A DNA stretch of 32,774 bases from a virus, in the IMG/VR virus record IMGVR_UViG_3300046820_000137, positions 1-32,774 of that record, one strand, 5' to 3'. The notes under the pieces were generated by a model. That model saw nothing but the letters and a program-made list of their open reading frames with translations, had not been told where the DNA came from and did not search any database. The position numbers were made by a program, and so were the translations under genes. Positions 747 through 32,774 of the stretch are shown piece by piece; positions within the stretch are counted from its first letter, which is position 1; each line of letters opens with the position of its first letter.

Positions 747-1471
747 TGGCATTATTAAGTCAAATTTTAGCAGCGTCGACTGTTCGTGGTGAGAAGGGTC
801 CAACGGCTACTGTTGATGTTGGAACATTAACAACATTAAACCCAAATCAAACCCCATCAATAACAAACACAGGATCTACTGGTTCTGCTTTGTTTAGTTT
901 TGGTTTACCAAGAGCAGCTTCTGTTGCTATGCATGCTACACCGATGCTGGTTGGTAACCCAAACTCTAATCCATCTATAACTAATAGTGGAACTAACGGA
1001 GACGTAGTCTTACAAATGACTATGCCTAGAGCACCTGTTGTTTCGTTGGGTACTGTGGCTAATGCAACTAGCGGGCAAAGCGGTAACGTAACAGCAACGA
1101 CAAGTGGTGCTGGAGATGTTGCATTTAACTTTGTAGTTCCACAAGGATTGATCTGGCGTAGCACCTGGAACTCAGCAACAACATATTATCCAAGAGACGC
1201 TGTTCAATGGCTTGGTTCTGCATATGTTTGTGTATTACAAACAACAAACAATGTACCACCAAATGCTACTTACTGGTCGCTGTTTGCTACCTCTGGTGCT
1301 GTCGGCGCAACAGGTGGTGGTGCAGATCAAATCTTTTGGGAAAATGGTAAAACAGTAACAACTGCCTATACAGTTGGAGCTAACTCAAATATGACTAGTT
1401 CTGGTCCAATAACTATTTCAGATGGTATCACGATAACTATAGCCTCTGGTGGCGAGTGGAGTATTGTATGA
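746..1471 (+). CDS. Tail-fibre-like protein with carbohydrate-binding-like segment
   Basis: 241 residues, with its ATG overlapping the previous stop by one base (TAATG). Residues 1-135 contain loose repeats of the form VGT(x)TTLNPNQTPSITNTGS...FGLPRA, each ending near a PRA/VPQ motif. Residues about 136-181 (WRSTWNSATTYYPRDAVQW...YVCVL...WSLFA) have the aromatic spacing W...Y..D.V...G..Y......W typical of small chitin/carbohydrate-binding modules of the CBM5/12 type. A short glycine-rich GAVGATGGG linker follows, then a C-terminal beta module (QIFWENGKTVTT...SGGEWSIV) that recurs in marine-phage fibres. Likely role is host-surface binding in the adhesion apparatus. This rests on motif resemblance, not on a database match. 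Confidence 0.7.
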   Translation: MALLSQILAASTVRGEKGPTATVDVGTLTTLNPNQTPSITNTGSTGSALFSFGLPRAASVAMHATPMLVGNPNSNPSITNSGTNGDVVLQMTMPRAPVVSLGTVANATSGQSGNVTATTSGAGDVAFNFVVPQGLIWRSTWNSATTYYPRDAVQWLGSAYVCVLQTTNNVPPNATYWSLFATSGAVGATGGGADQIFWENGKTVTTAYTVGANSNMTSSGPITISDGITITIASGGEWSIV

Positions 1472-2043
1472 GTAAATTGGTAGTTTCGCAATTAGAATCA
1501 CCAGCAGTGTCTGGTATTATAACAGTTGTGCCTGGAGACATAGTGTATTCTCCAGGGTCAGTTGTACAAGTTATTCAAAACCACACATGGGATCAGTCAT
1601 CAATGTCTATCCCGAGCAGCTATACAGCATTCACAAACATACCATTAACTGCTTCTATTACACCAAAAAGTTCAGCGAGCAAAATTTTGGTTGAAGTTAG
1701 ATGGATGGGTGAATTCAGTAACGAAGCTGCTACTTGGAACTTAATGTGGAATTTAAGAAGAGGTACTACACTGATTGGTAGAAACCCATCGTGGCCAACA
1801 GATAGAAACACTGGTTTGATGATTTCTTATCTCAGCTACCGTGATGCTGACAGCAGCAGTACACCTGAGGGTGTATTCTATAACTATCTGGATTCTCCAG
1901 CTACAACTTCCACAATAACATACACAGCTTGTGTTCAAACTGACACAGCCATAACCTTGTGGACTAATCGTACTGTAGGTTATACATCTGGTGGTCACGA
2001 AGCTGGCACAAGTTCTATTACATTATGGGAGATTGCGCAGTGA
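1468..2043 (+). CDS. Small tail/fibre structural protein with C1q/TNF-like jelly-roll pattern
   Basis: About 191 residues. I take the ATG at 1468 (ATGA overlap with the previous TGA) rather than the in-frame GTG at 1456, because the N-terminus then reads MSKLVVSQLES, matching the starts of the four following genes (SRLQVDQL, MSVVRVSQL, SFLKVDTI, MSVLRVNTI). The middle contains YTAFTNIPLTASITPKSSASK followed by ILVEV, a pattern seen in phage proteins with a C1q/TNF-like beta-sandwich. It ends SSITLWEIAQ. It is probably a virion protein of the fibre or baseplate periphery, translated in a coupled string with its neighbours. Its exact place in the particle is unknown. Confidence 0.65.
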   Translation: MSKLVVSQLESPAVSGIITVVPGDIVYSPGSVVQVIQNHTWDQSSMSIPSSYTAFTNIPLTASITPKSSASKILVEVRWMGEFSNEAATWNLMWNLRRGTTLIGRNPSWPTDRNTGLMISYLSYRDADSSSTPEGVFYNYLDSPATTSTITYTACVQTDTAITLWTNRTVGYTSGGHEAGTSSITLWEIAQ

Positions 2044-2588
2044 GTAGACTACAAGTTGATCAACTGGCAGCAAGAACTGGTACTGGAACTATTACTATTC
2101 CAACTGGTAGTAGATTGGTTGGCACAGACGTTGGTGCGATAACAACTAACAGAGGCGTCGTACAGGTACAATATGCCACTGCGATGCCAACAAGTCATAT
2201 CACAGTAACATCAACTAGTAATACTACTCTTGGGTTAAACCTCACCATAACACCTATCTTTGCTAATAGCATTATTAAAGTTGAGTTCTTTAGCACTATG
2301 TTGCTAGGAAACGCTAATGCTTTGACACTAACACTACAACGTAGAATAGGTGCTGGCTCTTTTTCAGATTTAACTCCAGCGACTGGCACATCTTCTAGGT
2401 ATACATATGGTTGGAGCTATAATAGTTCTAGTTGGATGGCGCAGAACAATATATATTTTGATACTCCGAACACAACATCTGCAGTAACATATCAATTACT
2501 TTACAGAAACTGGAGTAGCACAGCAACTAATTATTTGGTGCACCAATACATGGAATATGGTTGGGTTGCTACGGAGATTAAACAATGA
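2040..2588 (+). CDS. Small tail/fibre structural protein, paralogue of the next gene
   Basis: I place the start at the GTG at 2040 (GTGA overlap with the TGA at 2041-2043), giving (M)SRLQVDQLAARTG in register with its paralogues; an in-frame ATG at 2025 would add MGDCA. About 182 residues. The C-terminal half (SRYTYGWSYNSSSW, then YLVHQYMEYGW and TEIKQ) closely matches the protein from 2585 (SSYRYAYGWNYNTNSW, YLVDQYMEYGW, TEIRG), so the two arose by duplication. A central NLTITPIFANSIIKVEFFS motif echoes the jelly-roll pattern of the preceding gene. Likely a virion protein of the adhesion apparatus. Function is inferred from context only. Confidence 0.65.
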   Translation: MSRLQVDQLAARTGTGTITIPTGSRLVGTDVGAITTNRGVVQVQYATAMPTSHITVTSTSNTTLGLNLTITPIFANSIIKVEFFSTMLLGNANALTLTLQRRIGAGSFSDLTPATGTSSRYTYGWSYNSSSWMAQNNIYFDTPNTTSAVTYQLLYRNWSSTATNYLVHQYMEYGWVATEIKQ

Positions 2589-3169
2589 GTGTTGTTAGAG
2601 TTTCACAACTAACATCAGAAATCGGCAGCGGTGATTTTTTCGTTAATACAGGAAATAGAATAATTTCTACAGATAACGAAATTTATAGCGGTCCAGGATC
2701 TATTGTTCAAGAAGTTAGAACTACTGCTATGACTGCTGGTGCATTAGCCACATCTGGTGGACCAGTAGAATTGGGATTGATTGGTACTATCAAACCAAGA
2801 TTTAAAAGTAGCACAATTTATGTTAGATTTTTTAGTACTATGCTTTACGGTGCTGCTGGATGGTTAGTTTGTACACTATACAGACAGGGTGGTACATACG
2901 CTAGCAATAACTGGTTCAACTACGATAGCAATACATTTAATGGATTTAACAACTTAACTGCAGATACTAGAAGTAGTTACAGATATGCATATGGATGGAA
3001 CTACAACACAAATTCATGGGCTCCTGCAGAATTTAAATACTTTGACTTTCCTGGTACTACCGAAGAGGTAAGTTATAAATTATATTACCAATCATCTGGC
3101 ACTAACTATCTTGTAGATCAGTATATGGAGTATGGTTGGATTTTAACAGAAATACGAGGTAGAGATTAA
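2585..3169 (+). CDS. Small tail/fibre structural protein, paralogue of the preceding gene
   Basis: 194 residues, starting with ATGA over the TGA of the previous gene. The N-terminal MSVVRVSQLTSEIGSG is the shared leader of this gene array. The pattern GTIKPRFKSSTIYVRFFSTM parallels LTITPIFANSIIKVEFFSTM in the preceding protein. The aromatic-rich C-terminus (RYAYGWNYNTNSW...DQYMEYGW) is shared with it as well. No enzymatic motif is visible. It is most likely a structural protein of the tail-fibre or receptor-binding complex, diversified after tandem duplication. Confidence 0.65.
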   Translation: MSVVRVSQLTSEIGSGDFFVNTGNRIISTDNEIYSGPGSIVQEVRTTAMTAGALATSGGPVELGLIGTIKPRFKSSTIYVRFFSTMLYGAAGWLVCTLYRQGGTYASNNWFNYDSNTFNGFNNLTADTRSSYRYAYGWNYNTNSWAPAEFKYFDFPGTTEEVSYKLYYQSSGTNYLVDQYMEYGWILTEIRGRD

Positions 3170-3759
3170 TGCCGTCATTCTTAAAAGTTGATACAATTAG
3201 AAATAATGCAAATGAGGATGTGCTGGTTAATGGCTATCCCAGAAGACCAGGACAAGTTATCGAGTATTTGAGTAGCCCGTGTGACGGATCATCTGTAACT
3301 GTTGGTTCTGGAACATATACATTCCAAAACGTAACTGCTGCTGTTGGACCAGTGTATACTTACACAGACGTACAAGGTTCTTCTATAAACTACACTCCAC
3401 CCGCTGGAACAACTCGTGTTATTTATGATTTTAACTATGCGATGTATTGGAACCATGACCACGCTATTTCTCACTTTAAGTTTTTTGTTGGTGCCAACGA
3501 AGTGACATTTGCTCGTTTTAGCAGATCTGGTCGTTATCCAGAAGACAGATATTCTTTTGTGTGGAACATAGCGATTGGCGGCGCAGGAAATGTGAATACT
3601 GGTAGACTAGCATCATGGACAACATCGCTAAATTTAAAAATGCAATGGCGTGCATATGGAACGAGTAATGCCAGAGGTTTACACGGAACTACATATTGGG
3701 ATGGTACTGGTAGTACACAGTTTAGTATGCCGATTTTAACAATTATAGCCATTGCATAA
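3169..3759 (+). CDS. Small tail/fibre structural protein, second paralogous pair (member 1)
   Basis: 196 residues with a TAATG overlap at the start. It begins MPSFLKVDTIRNNANEDVLVNG, the short leader shared across the array. The following protein (3759-4346) matches it along its length: RPGQVIEYL/RPGRVMEYL, GTTRVIYDF/GATRVIYKF, HDHAIS, ARFSRSGRYPED/ARHSRSGRYPED, NTGR, LTIIAIA/LSIIAIA. The conserved HDHAIS and SRSGRYPED blocks define this subfamily. I do not recognise an enzymatic fold. Placement among fibre genes suggests a virion surface role. Confidence 0.65.
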   Translation: MPSFLKVDTIRNNANEDVLVNGYPRRPGQVIEYLSSPCDGSSVTVGSGTYTFQNVTAAVGPVYTYTDVQGSSINYTPPAGTTRVIYDFNYAMYWNHDHAISHFKFFVGANEVTFARFSRSGRYPEDRYSFVWNIAIGGAGNVNTGRLASWTTSLNLKMQWRAYGTSNARGLHGTTYWDGTGSTQFSMPILTIIAIA

Positions 3760-4346
3760 TGAGTGTTTTAAGAGTAAATACAATACAGAACAGCAGTGGA
3801 CAAGATTTGCTTGTCAACGGAATACCAACACGCCCAGGAAGGGTGATGGAATATTTGGTTTGTAATGGTGATGGTTCATCTGATCTCGGAGCAGTTTCTG
3901 AAATATCTGCGGCACAGATTAACAATTACAGACAAGCGATTTACTCATATGAGATGATCCCTGGATCAGATGTCTCTTACTGTCCACCACTTGGCGCAAC
4001 TAGAGTTATCTACAAATTTAGATATGGTATGAGATGGGAACATGATCATGCTATTTCTAATATGAAGTTTTACATAGATTCAGATGAAATAGTTTTCGCT
4101 AGACACAGCAGATCTGGTCGCTATCCAGAAGATAACACCGAATTTATGTGGACTATGGCTATTGGTGGAACTACTAATTTTAACACAGGCAGAGTATCAG
4201 AGTGGACAGCGCCAAAAAGACTTTCTATGTGGTGGCGTGCGCATGGAAGCGGTAACGCTAGATCAATGCACGCTACTAACTACTATGACGGCACTGGTAT
4301 ATTACTTACTGTTGTGCCCACATTATCAATTATTGCAATAGCATAA
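3759..4346 (+). CDS. Small tail/fibre structural protein, second paralogous pair (member 2)
   Basis: 195 residues, TAATG overlap with the preceding gene. It starts MSVLRVNTIQNSSGQDLLVNG, an N-terminus I associate with small structural proteins of T4-like aquatic phages. It retains the HDHAIS, SRSGRYPED and NTGR blocks of its neighbour but diverges in the loops between them, as expected for duplicated receptor-facing proteins. It is the last member of a five-gene, fully coupled string; the next gene has its own Shine-Dalgarno sequence (AGAGGAA). Molecular role is inferred from context. Confidence 0.65.
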   Translation: MSVLRVNTIQNSSGQDLLVNGIPTRPGRVMEYLVCNGDGSSDLGAVSEISAAQINNYRQAIYSYEMIPGSDVSYCPPLGATRVIYKFRYGMRWEHDHAISNMKFYIDSDEIVFARHSRSGRYPEDNTEFMWTMAIGGTTNFNTGRVSEWTAPKRLSMWWRAHGSGNARSMHATNYYDGTGILLTVVPTLSIIAIA

Positions 4347-25770: not shown

Positions 25771-27954
25771 ATGGAAATGAAAGCAAGCGATCTCTCCGCT
25801 AAACTTTTGGCCACTGAAAACCTTTCAGTGGTTCGTGCCCGAGCACGTACTGCATCTTTCGACATCAAGAGTCGAATTTTGACCCTTCCAATGTGGAAGG
25901 AAATGACCCCTGAGATTGAGGACATGCTCATTGGTCACGAAGTGGCACATGCACTTTACACTTCTGAAGAATACCTGCAACCAATCAGAGAAAATACCAA
26001 ACTGATGGGCTACATGAACATCATCGAAGATGTTCGTATCGAAAAACTAATCAAACGCAAATATCCAGGTCTACGCAAGCGTATGAACGATGGATATAAA
26101 CAACTCAACGATCGTGACTTCTTTGGTGTGAAGACGATTCAAAATTTTGACGATCTGCTTTTGATTGACAAAATCAACCTATACTTCAAAGTCGGGTTCA
26201 ACTGTGGTGTCACATTCTCACCAGAAGAAAAAACATTTGTGAATCGTGCCGAACGATGCGAGACTATTGACGATGTTATTAGTCTTGCCAAGGACATCTT
26301 TGATTACTCAAAGCAAAAAGCTGAAGAACGCAAAGAGCGTATGGGTGCACAAGATGTGGAAGAAGACGAAGATCCAACAGAAGGTGATTTTGACATCGAT
26401 GATCAAGATGACTTTGATGACATGGAAGATGATGACGAAACTGATAACCCGAATGGTGGCAGTTCTCAACCAAAATCTGAATCTGCTGAAGAAGACGAAG
26501 ACGAAGACCTAGCACCTAAGACAGAACGTGTGTTCCAGAATCGTCTGGATGATTTGGCTGACGAATCGACTGAGTACAAGTATTGGAAATTTGATACCGA
26601 TTTTATTGAATCGCCTATTATCGGCTACAAGAAAATTCTTAGCGAAACCAAGTCACCTGAGCAGTGGACAGAGGAAGATTCGCTAGAAGGTAGTCGCATG
26701 TTGCGTTATATGTCTGACGAAGATCGTGTCACGTGGATGAAACAACAGTCCGCTGAATACGAAAACTTCAAAGTCGAGACAACTCGCACTGTGAATTATC
26801 TTGTCAAAGAATTCGAAATGAAAAAGTCTGCCCAGTTGCACAAGCGTGCACAGACTTCTAAAATTGGTTCTCTGGACATGCGTAAAGTTTATGCGTATAA
26901 ACTCAAAGATGATTTGTTTAAGCGTGTTACCACTTTACCGCAAGGTAAGAATCATGGCATGATTATGCTTGTTGACTGGTCTGGTTCCATGAACGAAGTG
27001 TTACACGACACTATTAAACAAGTTGTTAGTTTGGCTCAGTTCTGTAACAGAATCCAAATTCCATATCGTGTCTATGCATTCACATCCGCATATTCGGATA
27101 CCAGTGACTATGACAAGTACGTTCAAAACGATCGTAAGCGTCGTGAGTGGATGAAAGCAAAGCAATTGTCTACTGATGCCTTGTTGCATGTTGATAATGG
27201 ATTTAATTTGCTAGAATTGTTTTCTAGTAAAATGACTACCAGTGAATTTAATGCAATGGCGAAGCGAACAATCGACTATCGTTTCACCCTTAACAAAGGA
27301 TATTCAACTGGTGGTACTCCATTGAATGAAGCTATGGCATGGGTTTACTTGAACCTTGGCAACTTCATTAAGGACAACAACATTGAGAAAACCACATTCA
27401 TCACTTTGTCTGATGGAGAAGGTAGTTCTATGCATCCAGTTCCTAATAGTTATCATCACACTCTGGATTCAGAACGTAGTGAAGTTGTTAATGGGGTGTG
27501 GAAGCGAATCAAGACCAAACACTTTATCAAAGATGAAGTGACTCAAAAGACATACGAAATTGATCGTTATTCTACGAATCAAGCGAATGTTATTTTGAAG
27601 ATGATCAAAGACCGATACAATGTTTCTATTGTTGGTTTTTACATCTGTCCGAACAACAAAGGTAGTTTGCGCAATGCAATTGCTGCGAACATTCCAGATT
27701 ATCGTGGCGATGTTTATGGTTTGATTGATCAGTGGCGTCTTGACTTTAAGAAAGAAAACTTTGCTTCGATCAAAAACACTGGTCGAGATGAGTTGTTCAT
27801 CATCCCTCAGTCTTCTACTAAAATTGTAGATACTCAATTGGAAGTTGATTCCACTGCAAGAGCAGTCAACATTGCAAAACAATTCGGCAAGTACCTTAAC
27901 ATTAGGAAGACTAACCGAATCCTGTTGAATCGCTTTGTATCCCTTGTGGCGTAA
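25771..27954 (+). CDS. CobT-like protein: zincin motif plus VWA domain
   Basis: 727 residues. The N-terminal region contains HEVAH (56-60) and, 25 residues on, NIIEDVRIE, a gluzincin-like HExxH...E pair suggesting a metallopeptidase fold. Residues about 205-257 are a very acidic, low-complexity linker. The C-terminal half is a von Willebrand A domain with a complete MIDAS: DWSGS (D402, S404, S406), GGTP (T516), LSDG (D548). This layout matches CobT-like partners of CobS/MoxR AAA+ ATPases, and such an ATPase is the next gene. In T4-like aquatic phages these are annotated as cobalamin-related, but the large chelatase subunit CobN is not visible here, so a remodelling or peptidase role is as likely. 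It has its own promoter and terminator. Confidence 0.8.
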   Translation: MEMKASDLSAKLLATENLSVVRARARTASFDIKSRILTLPMWKEMTPEIEDMLIGHEVAHALYTSEEYLQPIRENTKLMGYMNIIEDVRIEKLIKRKYPGLRKRMNDGYKQLNDRDFFGVKTIQNFDDLLLIDKINLYFKVGFNCGVTFSPEEKTFVNRAERCETIDDVISLAKDIFDYSKQKAEERKERMGAQDVEEDEDPTEGDFDIDDQDDFDDMEDDDETDNPNGGSSQPKSESAEEDEDEDLAPKTERVFQNRLDDLADESTEYKYWKFDTDFIESPIIGYKKILSETKSPEQWTEEDSLEGSRMLRYMSDEDRVTWMKQQSAEYENFKVETTRTVNYLVKEFEMKKSAQLHKRAQTSKIGSLDMRKVYAYKLKDDLFKRVTTLPQGKNHGMIMLVDWSGSMNEVLHDTIKQVVSLAQFCNRIQIPYRVYAFTSAYSDTSDYDKYVQNDRKRREWMKAKQLSTDALLHVDNGFNLLELFSSKMTTSEFNAMAKRTIDYRFTLNKGYSTGGTPLNEAMAWVYLNLGNFIKDNNIEKTTFITLSDGEGSSMHPVPNSYHHTLDSERSEVVNGVWKRIKTKHFIKDEVTQKTYEIDRYSTNQANVILKMIKDRYNVSIVGFYICPNNKGSLRNAIAANIPDYRGDVYGLIDQWRLDFKKENFASIKNTGRDELFIIPQSSTKIVDTQLEVDSTARAVNIAKQFGKYLNIRKTNRILLNRFVSLVA

Positions 27955-28030: not shown

Positions 28031-28062
28031 TACGTTATTAACCTTGATTATGGAGATTTGTG

Positions 28063-29241
28063 ATGAGTAGAGTTGATGCTGTGTTTCGCCGTGAATTCGA
28101 ACTGAAACTCTTTGAGATGTACCCTGATGTGCAAACTCGTGGTACAGTCAGTCGTCCTGAATTGATGAGTGTCATGAAAACACTCAAGACTGAGAAATAT
28201 CCTCTGTGGCTTATGAAAGATAAACTTGGTCGTGGATTGTATGCCATCGATGGTGGTACTTATCGTGCTGCTGATGCGCAAGTTATTGGTAATAATGTTT
28301 TGAAAGAAAACCCTGTGAGACAAGAATCATTCGTAGTAGACTACACAGACACTAAATCACTCATCCCTGTTAAAGATTCCAACTTTGTTCCATTCGGCAA
28401 CTATGCTGACTTGGAGAACATTATCAAGTCTGGAATCTTTTATCCTGCATACATCTCTGGTCCAACTGGTAATGGTAAGTCTACCATGGTTGAACAGATT
28501 TGTGCCAAGCACAAGAAACCACTCATTCGTGTTAACCTTAACATGATGACTGACGAAGAACAACTCATTGGTTCTAAGACTCTTGTCGAAGGCAACGTGC
28601 ATGTTGTAGAAGGTCCAGTTCTTATCGCTATGCGCACTGGCACCACTTTGCTGCTTGACGAAATTGACGCTGGCTCTGCTAACACCTTGCTGTGTTTGCA
28701 ACCGATTCTTGAAGGTAAACCATACTACTTCAAGCTGAACAACGAAATGATTATCCCTGCTGCTGGTTTCAATGTCATTGCGACTGCGAACACTAAAGGT
28801 AAGGGTTCAGACGATGGTCGATACATCGGTACTAACATTCTTAACGAAGCATTCTTGGAGCGTTTCGCTGTAACCTTCGAACAGGAATATCCTGCTGCGA
28901 AAGTAGAGGTGAAGATCATCAAGAATCTGATGCATTCATATGGCTGTGTTGATGATGAGTTTGCCGAAACTCTTGTGAAGTGGGCTGATGCTATTCGCCG
29001 TACCTTTGCAGATGGTGGTGTTGACGAAACTATCACAACTCGTCGTATGATCCACATCGTTCGTGCGTTTGCCATCTTCAAAGATCGCACTAAGGCTGTG
29101 GAACTTTGCTGCAATCGTTTTGATGCAGCAACCAAGAGTGCATTTATCGACTTGTACGATAAAGTTGCAAACCCCCAACCCGAAGTTGTGCCATCGGAGA
29201 CTGCCATCAAGACTCCAGAAAGCGAAGAGATCCCATTCTAA
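28063..29241 (+). CDS. cobS-like: MoxR/CobS-like AAA+ ATPase
   Basis: 392 residues from the ATG at 28063; a GTG three bases earlier is in frame but less likely. Walker A is GPTGNGKST (133-141), Walker B TLLLDEID (195-202), then LQPILEGK, sensor ATANTKGKG and the CobS hallmark GRYIGTNILNEAFLERFAVT. CobS is the AAA+ subunit of the aerobic cobaltochelatase; MoxR relatives act with VWA proteins as chaperone-like remodelling machines. The gene directly follows the VWA/zincin protein, so the two probably form a MoxR-VWA complex. It ends with a short flexible tail (PSETAIKTPESEEIPF) and is followed by a palindrome, a CCCTAC stem-loop and a promoter. Confidence 0.85.
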   Translation: MSRVDAVFRREFELKLFEMYPDVQTRGTVSRPELMSVMKTLKTEKYPLWLMKDKLGRGLYAIDGGTYRAADAQVIGNNVLKENPVRQESFVVDYTDTKSLIPVKDSNFVPFGNYADLENIIKSGIFYPAYISGPTGNGKSTMVEQICAKHKKPLIRVNLNMMTDEEQLIGSKTLVEGNVHVVEGPVLIAMRTGTTLLLDEIDAGSANTLLCLQPILEGKPYYFKLNNEMIIPAAGFNVIATANTKGKGSDDGRYIGTNILNEAFLERFAVTFEQEYPAAKVEVKIIKNLMHSYGCVDDEFAETLVKWADAIRRTFADGGVDETITTRRMIHIVRAFAIFKDRTKAVELCCNRFDAATKSAFIDLYDKVANPQPEVVPSETAIKTPESEEIPF

Positions 29242-30218: not shown

Positions 30219-30253
30219 AATGGACATTCTTCCGAGTGTCCATTGCTTATTTC
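30219..30253 (+). terminator. Hairpin between 30205 and 30266
   Basis: AATGGACATTC - TTCC - GAGTGTCCATT is an 11-pair stem with one T-G pair and a 4-base loop, followed by GCTTATTTC. It is a likely weak terminator or an mRNA-processing/stability element, placed 22 bases before the next start codon. Confidence 0.6.
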
Positions 30254-30265
30254 ATTGGAGATAAT

Positions 30266-30604
30266 ATGGCAAAGAAAGATGATGTTAAAGCTAGTCAGAC
30301 CGCAACGACTGGTGGTCGCAAGTTTGATGGTGGTAAACCCCAATATGGTTTGCTCCCTCCACTGGCGCTAAAGGCAACTGTCGATGTACTGACTTTTGGT
30401 GCACAGAAATATGAACCAGACAACTGGAAGTTTGTTCCTGATTCTAAACGACGATACTTTGATGCACTACAACGACATCTATGGCAGTGGAAAGAAGGCG
30501 AACAGATCGACCAAGAATCTGGTATGCATCATTTAGCCCATGCCATGTGCTGTTTGATGTTCTTATATGAACATGATGTGAAATACTCTAAGGAAGAAAA
30601 ATGA
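30266..30604 (+). CDS. MazG-like dNTP pyrophosphohydrolase-type protein (DUF5664-like)
   Basis: 112 residues from the ATG at 30266 with TTGGAGATAAT upstream; a longer frame from 30236 runs into the hairpin and is unlikely. The motif GGRKFDGGKPQYGLLPPLAL, then VDVLTFGAQKYEPDNWK, and DALQRHLWQWKEGE followed by ESGMHHLAHAMCCLMFLYEH, is the signature of the phage family annotated as dATP/dGTP diphosphohydrolase, N-terminal, or DUF5664. These are all-alpha MazG-like folds that hydrolyse (d)NTPs to monophosphates. Expected metal ligands are in the EGE and ESGMHH segments (about residues 78-90). It may shape the nucleotide pool during infection. No purZ- or datZ-like gene is visible, so a modified-base pathway cannot be claimed. 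Confidence 0.75.
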   Translation: MAKKDDVKASQTATTGGRKFDGGKPQYGLLPPLALKATVDVLTFGAQKYEPDNWKFVPDSKRRYFDALQRHLWQWKEGEQIDQESGMHHLAHAMCCLMFLYEHDVKYSKEEK

Positions 30605-31149: not shown

Positions 31150-31947
31150 ATGAAAAGCGTTTTTAAAATCTCTGCTCTGGTTGCTGCTGCTGTTTTGGCT
31201 ACAGGCTGCACTCGAATCGAAACTGGTGAGGTTGGTGTTCGTGTTGGTTTCGACAAGCAGGTTCAAAGTGGCGAACTGCTCCCTGGATCCTTTAATCAGG
31301 TATTGATTGGCGATGTGCTGACATTCCCCATCAAGGATGTTAATGTCACCCTCAATGACATGACTCCAGTGGCAAAGGATAACTCAACTATGAAGGACTT
31401 GGATGCCGTAGTTGTTTATAACATCAACCCACAGCAAGTTGCTGAATTGTATTCAACCAAGAACAAGGCATTCCACGCTGAGTTTAAAGGTGATACTTAC
31501 GTGATGTATAACTACATTGTTCAGAATGCTCGTAATGCTATCTACAAAGCTGCTCGTAAGTATGAAGCACTGGACATGGCTGACAATCGTAGCGAGATGG
31601 AAAAGTTTATTCAAGAAGAGATTGTTCGTAATCTCGCTGAAGAAAAGTTGGATGGTACTATCGTAATCAATCAAGTATTGATTCGTAATGTTGTACCAGC
31701 AGACTCTGTTGTCGAAAGCGCCAATGCATTGGTTCGTGCTAAGAACGAACTCAAGCAGAAAGAAGTTGAAGTGAAGACTGCTGAAGCTGAAGCACGTCGA
31801 ATGGCTGCTCTGGCTAACAACAGTTCTAGCTCAATTGCTTTCATGAATGCTCAGGCTGCGCTCAATATCTCTGAAGGTATTAAGAACGGTAAAGTACAGA
31901 CTATTGTTGTACCAAGTAACATGACATCTTTGATGCTGCCAAAATAA
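31150..31947 (+). CDS. SPFH/Band-7-type lipoprotein
   Basis: 265 residues. The N-terminus is a lipoprotein signal (KSVFKISALVAAAVLATGC) with probable lipidated C20 after ATG, so the mature protein would be anchored outside the cytoplasm. The following domain (ETGEVGVRVGFDKQVQSGEL, FPIKDVNVTLNDMTPV, AVVVYNINPQQVAELY, NYIVQNARNAIYKAARKYEA, EEKLDGTIVINQVLIRNVVP) fits the SPFH/prohibitin/HflC family, and a helical segment ALVRAKNELKQKEVEVKTAE, then AEARRMA, is its usual coiled coil. Such proteins form membrane rings or caps that scaffold or protect other proteins. Good RBS AAAGGAAAT. It lies between the two-TM peptide and the ahpC-like gene and is probably co-transcribed with them. Confidence 0.8.
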   Translation: MKSVFKISALVAAAVLATGCTRIETGEVGVRVGFDKQVQSGELLPGSFNQVLIGDVLTFPIKDVNVTLNDMTPVAKDNSTMKDLDAVVVYNINPQQVAELYSTKNKAFHAEFKGDTYVMYNYIVQNARNAIYKAARKYEALDMADNRSEMEKFIQEEIVRNLAEEKLDGTIVINQVLIRNVVPADSVVESANALVRAKNELKQKEVEVKTAEAEARRMAALANNSSSSIAFMNAQAALNISEGIKNGKVQTIVVPSNMTSLMLPK

Positions 31948-31967: not shown

Positions 31968-32519
31968 ATGTTGACTGTTGGAAATAAACTCGATTCATTT
32001 GTTGTCACTGGTGTTAATCCAGGAAGCGACCAATTCTTCGATATCACTGAAAAGTCTTTTGAAGGCAAGTGGAAGATCATTGTATACTACCCCAAGGACT
32101 TCACTTTCGTATGTCCTACTGAGATCGTTGCTTACGATAAACTGTTCCAAGACTTTGCGGATCGTGATGCAGTTCTATTGACTGGTTCTACAGATAACGA
32201 ATTCTGTAAGCTGGCATGGCAGCGTTCACATGCTGACTTGGGTAAGATCAAACACATCCAGTTTGCTGACACACAGCGTTGGAATGATGAGACTGGATAC
32301 AATCTGAGTTTGATCGAGCAACTCGGTGTATTCTATGTACCTGCTGGTGCTGCACTCCGTGCTACTTTTATCGTTGATCCAGATAATGTTATCCAGCACG
32401 TTACTGTGAACAACCTTAATGTTGGTCGTTCTCCTGAAGAAACCTTGCGTATCCTTGATGCGTTGCAGACTGGTGAACTGTGCGCATGTAACCGCACAGT
32501 TGGTGGAGAAACTCTATAA
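31968..32519 (+). CDS. ahpC: AhpC-type peroxiredoxin
   Basis: 183 residues with an AAAAGGAAAAAC ribosome binding site. This is a thiol peroxidase that reduces H2O2, alkyl hydroperoxides and possibly peroxynitrite. The peroxidatic site is PKDFTFVCPTE (C49, with T46 and P42), with conserved R131 (ALRATFIVDP) and W84. The C-terminal resolving region is LDALQTGELCACN, two cysteines (C172, C174) followed by GGETL. This three-cysteine AhpC type, with LCxCN near the C-terminus, is the one paired with AhpD rather than AhpF (mycobacterial ahpC-ahpD is the model). The next gene is indeed AhpD-like and overlaps its stop. The full domain and active site are intact, so it is likely functional. Confidence 0.93.
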   Translation: MLTVGNKLDSFVVTGVNPGSDQFFDITEKSFEGKWKIIVYYPKDFTFVCPTEIVAYDKLFQDFADRDAVLLTGSTDNEFCKLAWQRSHADLGKIKHIQFADTQRWNDETGYNLSLIEQLGVFYVPAGAALRATFIVDPDNVIQHVTVNNLNVGRSPEETLRILDALQTGELCACNRTVGGETL

Positions 32520-32774
32520 TGGCATTCGTTGACGCTGTTAAAGAAGCGTTGCCAGAATACGCAAAGGACACCAAGCTAAACTTGGACTCTGTCCTTTTGC
32601 GTAGCACGCTAGATCCTAATGTAGCTATGGGTTGTGCCGTAGCTGCGCTGGCTGCAACTGGTAACGGTAAACTGCTATCAGTTTTGTTGGCAGACAACCC
32701 CACATTCGCTGAATCTGCTATGGCTGCAGCAAGCATTATGGCACAGAACAATGTATGGTATCCATATGTTGAGA
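32519..32774 (+). CDS. ahpD: AhpD-like alkylhydroperoxidase, 3' truncated by window end
   Basis: The ATG overlaps the ahpC stop (TAATG); 85 residues are visible. FVDAVKEALPEYAKDTKLNL, then DSVL, and the AMAAASIMAQNNVWYPYVE segment match the N-terminal half of AhpD (ALPEYAKD-KLNLSS..., A-A-IM-MNNV-Y). AhpD recycles oxidised AhpC using electrons passed through lipoylated dehydrogenase components (shown for Mycobacterium with SucB and Lpd). The catalytic CxxC and His lie beyond the window. Translational coupling with ahpC supports a stoichiometric pair. Confidence 0.85.
   Translation, partial: MAFVDAVKEALPEYAKDTKLNLDSVLLRSTLDPNVAMGCAVAALAATGNGKLLSVLLADNPTFAESAMAAASIMAQNNVWYPYVE

Follow-up and report, generated by a model that had tools for sequence, protein, structure and literature searches.

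The closest described system is the AhpC-AhpD pair of Burkholderia thailandensis, in which a three-cysteine peroxiredoxin (C57, C171, and C173) reduces H2O2, organic peroxides, and peroxynitrite and protects the cell; AhpD, which has a CxxC pair (C131 and C134), binds and reduces AhpC, and in vitro this reduction draws on NADH through Lpd and SucB and is more efficient than that by thioredoxin (PMC6626918). The same two proteins are represented structurally in Mycobacterium tuberculosis by AhpC (2bmx) and AhpD (1knc and 1gu9); the ring interface of M. tuberculosis AhpC includes F57, T58, F91, I114, and V130, and its N-terminal loop (residues 23 to 34) is required for ring formation and activity (PMC5505994). 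Phage peroxiredoxin genes are known from Synechococcus phage S-SCSM1 and Microcystis phage MaAM05 (prxU), and a virus-encoded ahpC, comparable at the level of that mention as another viral peroxiredoxin gene, is mentioned for a Lake Erie bloom (PMC12542629).

Both the bacterial AhpC-AhpD system and peroxiredoxins of phages have thus been described before, whereas the pair in phages apparently has not. No description of a phage AhpC-AhpD pair was found in the open-access papers searched; all AhpC matches in INPHARED were <50% identical, no INPHARED record had a matching AhpD or a pair of this type, PHROGs gave no AhpD match, and the BFVD viral structure library gave none with an E value of <0.001. 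By TerL and gp45, the nearest cultured relatives of the phage described here are Melnitz (Methylophilales host), marine cyanophages, and HTVC008M (~50% identity), none of which has such a pair in INPHARED.

The ahpC-ahpD locus of a T4-like phage

The window analyzed here is an entire IMG/VR virus record of 32,774 bases, classed as a fragment (Table 1). The phage is T4-like, in agreement with the initial annotation: the window and L082, an overlapping contig, together encode a Gp23 capsid protein (Pfam, E 2e-141) and PHROGs matches to TerL, sheath, gp45, and gp44, and a helicase and SbcCD are also part of this context.

Table 1. Positions of features of the ahpC-ahpD locus within the window
Feature	Position	Strand	Basis
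Band_7/SPFH lipoprotein gene, 20 bp upstream of ahpC	31150..31947	+	Pfam Band_7, E 1.2e-18; phrog_200; empty-site comparison
ahpC, three-cysteine peroxiredoxin, 183 aa	31968..32519	+	Intact ORF, Pfam, alignment, predicted structure
Peroxidatic Cys49 codon	32112..32114	+	FTFVCPTE aligned to M. tuberculosis C61; invariant in AhpC alignment A2
Cys80 codon	32205..32207	+	Cys in 123/123 phage rows; bacterial rows have V, C, S, or A or are unscored
Phage-clade loop of 11 aa	32274..32306	+	Adjoins M. tuberculosis AhpC ring interface (interface residues, PMC5505994)
Resolving Cys172 and Cys174 (C-A-C, in LCACN)	32481..32489	+	Invariant alignment columns
TAATG, overlap of ahpC stop and ahpD start	32517..32521	+	Read from sequence
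ahpD, first 85 codons, truncated by contig end	32519..32774	+	Completed in L082:1692-2198 (168 aa, CxxC)

The ahpD reading frame runs off the end of the window, so that the AhpD active site lies outside it. The 4,123-bp contig L082, which comes from a different metagenome, matches the last 1,947 bp of the window at 100% identity, with no mismatch, and contains the complete gene, whose product has E116, C128-H-F-C131, and H135; a broken or catalytically dead AhpD is thus rejected. The genes 3' of ahpD in L082 encode the sliding clamp gp45 (phrog_223, E 7e-73) and then the clamp loader gp44 (phrog_168, E 5e-123). The overlap and the continuation into these T4-type genes rule out both a chimera and an interrupted gene, either of which would have undermined the initial annotation, and the CxxC and histidine to which it had tied its proposal of a complete peroxidase-plus-adaptor set are present. 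Its reading of the TAATG overlap as coupling of the two genes was likewise borne out. A hairpin is located between ahpD and gp45 (L082:2208-2231); because the hairpin hits top the shuffled expectation only modestly, we infer rather than observe that the Band_7 gene, ahpC, and ahpD form one transcription unit.

Other regions of the window also contain genes of interest. Close to the replication module, a nucleotide-pool gene (30236-30604) matches the N-terminal family of dATP/dGTP diphosphohydrolase (PF18909, E 3.7e-35). Five consecutive ORFs of ~187 to 196 aa at 1456-4346 have similar starts (MSKLVVSQLES, MGDCAVSRLQVDQL, MSVVRVSQLTS, MPSFLKVDTIRN, and MSVLRVNTIQN) and are apparently, from their sequences, a paralogous array of tail/fiber proteins that diverged in tandem. 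A 727-aa von Willebrand-type-like protein (25771-27954) is encoded beside a MoxR/CobS-like AAA+ ATPase (28060-29241), a gene pair that presumably resembles the CobT/CobS-like pairs of some T4-like phages.

Both proteins retain the features of their families

AhpC has C49, C172, and C174, with a further cysteine at C80, and scores 67.6 bits against Pfam AhpC-TSA (cutoff, 26); its score of 107.7 bits against the NCBIfam AhpC equivalog TIGR03137 falls below the cutoff of 272, making it a relative rather than an equivalog member. In a sequence search of the PDB, M. tuberculosis AhpC ranked first (E 3e-36); its C61 corresponds to C49 and its C-terminal pair (C174/C176) to C172/C174, and VCPTE is retained in 150 of 150 intact phage AhpC rows. 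The AlphaFold2 model (pLDDT 80) has the predicted fold of a peroxiredoxin, aligning with Salmonella AhpC (Z 22.4, 159 residues, rmsd 2.1) and with 2bmx (Z 21.1, 164 residues, rmsd 3.0). With the VCPTE motif, two resolving cysteines, and this fold, AhpC is a typical 2-Cys peroxiredoxin of the three-Cys type, and the intact enzyme with peroxidatic and resolving cysteines recognized in the initial annotation is confirmed.

The downstream gene had been called AhpD-like, and both its sequence match to M. tuberculosis AhpD (E 1.7e-22) and its predicted structure (pLDDT 94.8), which aligns with 1knc at a TM score of 0.91 (rmsd 1.5, 36% identity), support that identification; in the model, the AhpD fold spans the whole chain. 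Full-length scoring gave 114.7 bits against the NCBIfam subfamily TIGR00777, below its cutoff of 191.95, whereas the core domain TIGR00778 (29.6 versus 27.8 bits) and Pfam CMD (41.1 versus 23 bits) were matched above theirs. M. tuberculosis E118, C130, C133, and H137 correspond to E116, C128, C131, and H135 and are invariant in AhpD alignment A1. At the position of His132, a proposed auxiliary residue of the M. tuberculosis enzyme, the phage protein has Phe, a residue shared by almost all of the Burkholderiales AhpDs read (CHFC form). The phage proteins thus share fold and catalytic residues with their M. tuberculosis counterparts and differ from them in overall sequence (36 to 41% identity), at this position, and in the loops near the AhpC ring interface.

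Phage AhpCs differ from bacterial AhpCs near the ring interface

Three features of the phage proteins emerged when 123 phage AhpCs were compared with 96 bacterial ones that could be scored. The segment after FADT comprises 5 to 24 residues in phages and 2 in every bacterial row scored (six distant bacterial rows, outside the search pattern, are by eye also without the insertion), and its length differs even between close phage relatives; the stretch following the N-terminal PG has 3 to 7 residues in phages and 11 in scored bacteria; and residue 80, mixed among bacteria, is always Cys in phages. In alignment with M. tuberculosis AhpC, phage T102, directly before the loop, corresponds to I114, C80 adjoins the equivalent of F91, and the shortened segment lies near residues 23 to 34, so that all three features map around the ring-assembly surface. 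These positions suggest that the changes may alter ring assembly. The FADTQR loop also provides a sequence signature for telling the cassette apart from host ahpC and for counting it in any metagenome.

The phage genes are related to Burkholderiales ahpC-ahpD pairs

The initial annotation had raised the question of a bacterial donor. Among bacterial genomes, the closest matches are ahpC-ahpD pairs of Burkholderiales (AhpC, 60 to 70% identity by tblastn and up to 76% by genome search), and 21 genomes in a sample of 300 Burkholderiales carry an AhpC at least 63% identical. In quick trees, with support given by SH-aLRT only, the 46 sampled phage AhpC rows group together as one clade next to Burkholderiales (SH-aLRT 95), and a single clade also unites 46 of the 48 phage AhpD rows (SH-aLRT 98), with L072 and L078 elsewhere; the phage rows were the best 80 per query of more than 570 to 600 stretches, and the single clade therefore describes relatives of this gene. 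Three Burkholderia-type loci (L179, L181, and L233) have AhpC C57/C171/C173 and AhpD C131/C134 exactly as published (PMC6626918), which places the B. thailandensis system in the bacterial group sister to the phage genes. These comparisons point to the Burkholderiales as the donor group, and probable descent from one of their ahpC-ahpD pairs is part of our best explanation. The phage genes share with the B. thailandensis group a three-Cys AhpC paired with a CxxC AhpD, and they are unlike it in the three AhpC features described above and in their overlap, as bacterial ahpC and ahpD are spaced.

L222, a contig of a Bacteroidota-labeled MAG, encodes an AhpC 79% identical to phage AhpC and an AhpD that groups with those of L072 and L078; it probably represents phage DNA that was binned with a bacterium.

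The pair is a widespread, mobile accessory cassette

The pair is an accessory cassette and no standard component of this phage lineage: AhpC is present in 4 and absent in 6 of 10 TerL-selected relatives of at least 80 kb (all records may be incomplete), and the pair is missing upstream of gp45 in 47 of 52 gp45 neighborhoods with at least 2.5 kb upstream. It is also far from rare: at least 600 AhpC stretches and at least 572 AhpD stretches match in IMG/VR, where carriers of the pair include T4-like phages and very different phages of 200 to 357 kb; uniqueness to this phage is thereby ruled out. The source samples give the impression, from contig names, of being largely freshwater.

In seven jumbo-size records of 233 to 357 kb (G019 and G021 to G026), TerL is only 32 to 36% identical to that of this phage, yet AhpC is 83 to 88% identical and, G026 excepted, AhpD is 85 to 89% identical, which indicates that the genes have moved between phages. 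The Band_7 gene marks the left edge of the insertion site: gp45 follows it after 75 to 87 bp in 12 close-relative loci without the pair, compared with 1,147 to 1,549 bp in three pair-bearing loci (L319, L320, and L389), and the order Band_7-AhpC-AhpD-gp45 recurs in these three and in L010 and L085, all from other metagenomes. Four further relatives (L359, L362, L373, and L395) have 0.6 to 1.35 kb of other DNA between Band_7 and gp45, so that the site resembles a cargo site. In G001 and G002, close by TerL, the pair is far from gp45. The pair behaves as a mobile accessory cassette, with close relatives having either an empty Band_7-gp45 site or the pair elsewhere.

Of 119 distinct phage loci, 59 show the TAATG overlap, a -1 overlap, whereas bacterial ahpC and ahpD are mostly spaced by tens to ~200 bp. 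In 49 of the 119 loci, other genes separate AhpC from AhpD, and AhpC and AhpD distances are weakly correlated (Mantel r 0.30); the two may therefore not always act as a unit, and partners may have been reshuffled between phages. The intervening gene is most often one with a weak match to GDSL hydrolases (25 loci) or a class II aldolase (15 loci); neither is a redox gene, and the idea of a redox gene between the separated partners was rejected. The aldolase (PF00596, E 2e-26; L042:5395-6053, L103, L109, and others) and the small GDSL-hydrolase-like gene, frequent between the two partners in other phages, hint at a larger metabolic gene cluster.

Discussion

Our results make it likely that ahpC and ahpD form, in this T4-like phage, a peroxide-reducing cassette of Burkholderiales descent, in which AhpC would reduce peroxide, AhpD would reduce AhpC, and host lipoyl enzymes would reduce AhpD. 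H2O2, an organic peroxide, or peroxynitrite would oxidize AhpC C49, with C172/C174 resolving; the AhpC disulfide would then be reduced by the AhpD CxxC (C128/C131, with E116 and H135), and AhpD would be rereduced from NADH by SucB or a similar E2 together with Lpd. The lipoyl-enzyme route, already proposed in the initial annotation, is supported by analogy, as Lpd-SucB-AhpD-AhpC transfer was measured for B. thailandensis (PMC6626918) and the nearest relatives of the phage genes are in Burkholderiales. Among 20 virus records searched, a flavoprotein reductase (Pyr_redox_2) was matched in one, just over the cutoff, thioredoxin in 4, and glutaredoxin in 11; host lipoyl enzymes are therefore the simplest reading, and a phage-encoded AhpF- or Lpd-like reductase was rejected, although the thioredoxin or glutaredoxin of some of these phages could reduce AhpC or AhpD instead. 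The benefit would most likely be that the infected cell and the replication enzymes are shielded from oxidative damage until lysis.

More tentatively, the virus-specific AhpC lineage, remodeled beside the ring-forming interface by its short N-terminal segment, the variable loop near the equivalents of M. tuberculosis I114/V130, and the fixed Cys80, might work unlike the host enzyme (for example, by assembling rings differently, resisting inactivation, or escaping host control) while circulating as a mobile cassette among unrelated phages; we regard this as possible but clearly short of probable.

As to the benefit, we place counterdefense second to protection of the infected cell: the pair might lower oxidants from a host defense system or the dying cell, so that the cell survives until lysis. 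Genes tied to host strain would be expected to form, as here, an accessory cassette that is mobile, patchily distributed, and diversifying and that occupies a cargo site, and the loop varies in length among close relatives; however, no defense gene or known redox-based defense is linked to the pair here, and patchiness suits any accessory metabolic gene, which makes this reading rather unlikely. We give still less credence to the proposal that the AhpD dithiol mainly serves another phage enzyme, such as ribonucleotide reductase or a repair enzyme, which AhpC would protect in place of the cell. The adjoining replication genes gp45 and gp44, the thioredoxin-like activity of AhpD named in the title of 1knc, and the loci in which AhpD stands apart from AhpC would fit it, but the position of the pair in G001 and G002 shows that the neighborhood is not fixed, and many of these phages carry glutaredoxin, the usual ribonucleotide reductase donor.

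Both genes are clearly bacterial in origin, as neutral passenger DNA from a host would be, but purifying selection acts on them strongly among diverged phages (median pairwise dN/dS, 0.097 for AhpC over 1,618 pairs and 0.072 for AhpD over 1,373 pairs). Ratios near 0.1 refute a neutral passenger, and active-site residues preserved in every intact copy read and a single clade spanning phages with such dissimilar TerL proteins leave that explanation very improbable. An assembly chimera of phage and bacterial DNA, conceivable for a pair at a contig end, is refuted by the exact L082 overlap running into gp45 and gp44 and by synteny repeated in other metagenomes, and we attach next to no weight to it.

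The AhpC-AhpD pair is a real, widespread, accessory phage gene set, and the spread of a virus-only version suggests that protecting the infected cell from oxidative damage benefits the phage. If the pair works like its bacterial relatives, many uncultured phages would supply a peroxidase and an adaptor tapping host central metabolism, and peroxide stress would genuinely limit infection rather than being a concern of the host alone. With a virus-only clade, spread over very different terminases, and a clean empty site, the cassette is a good test case for how phages take up and exchange redox genes.
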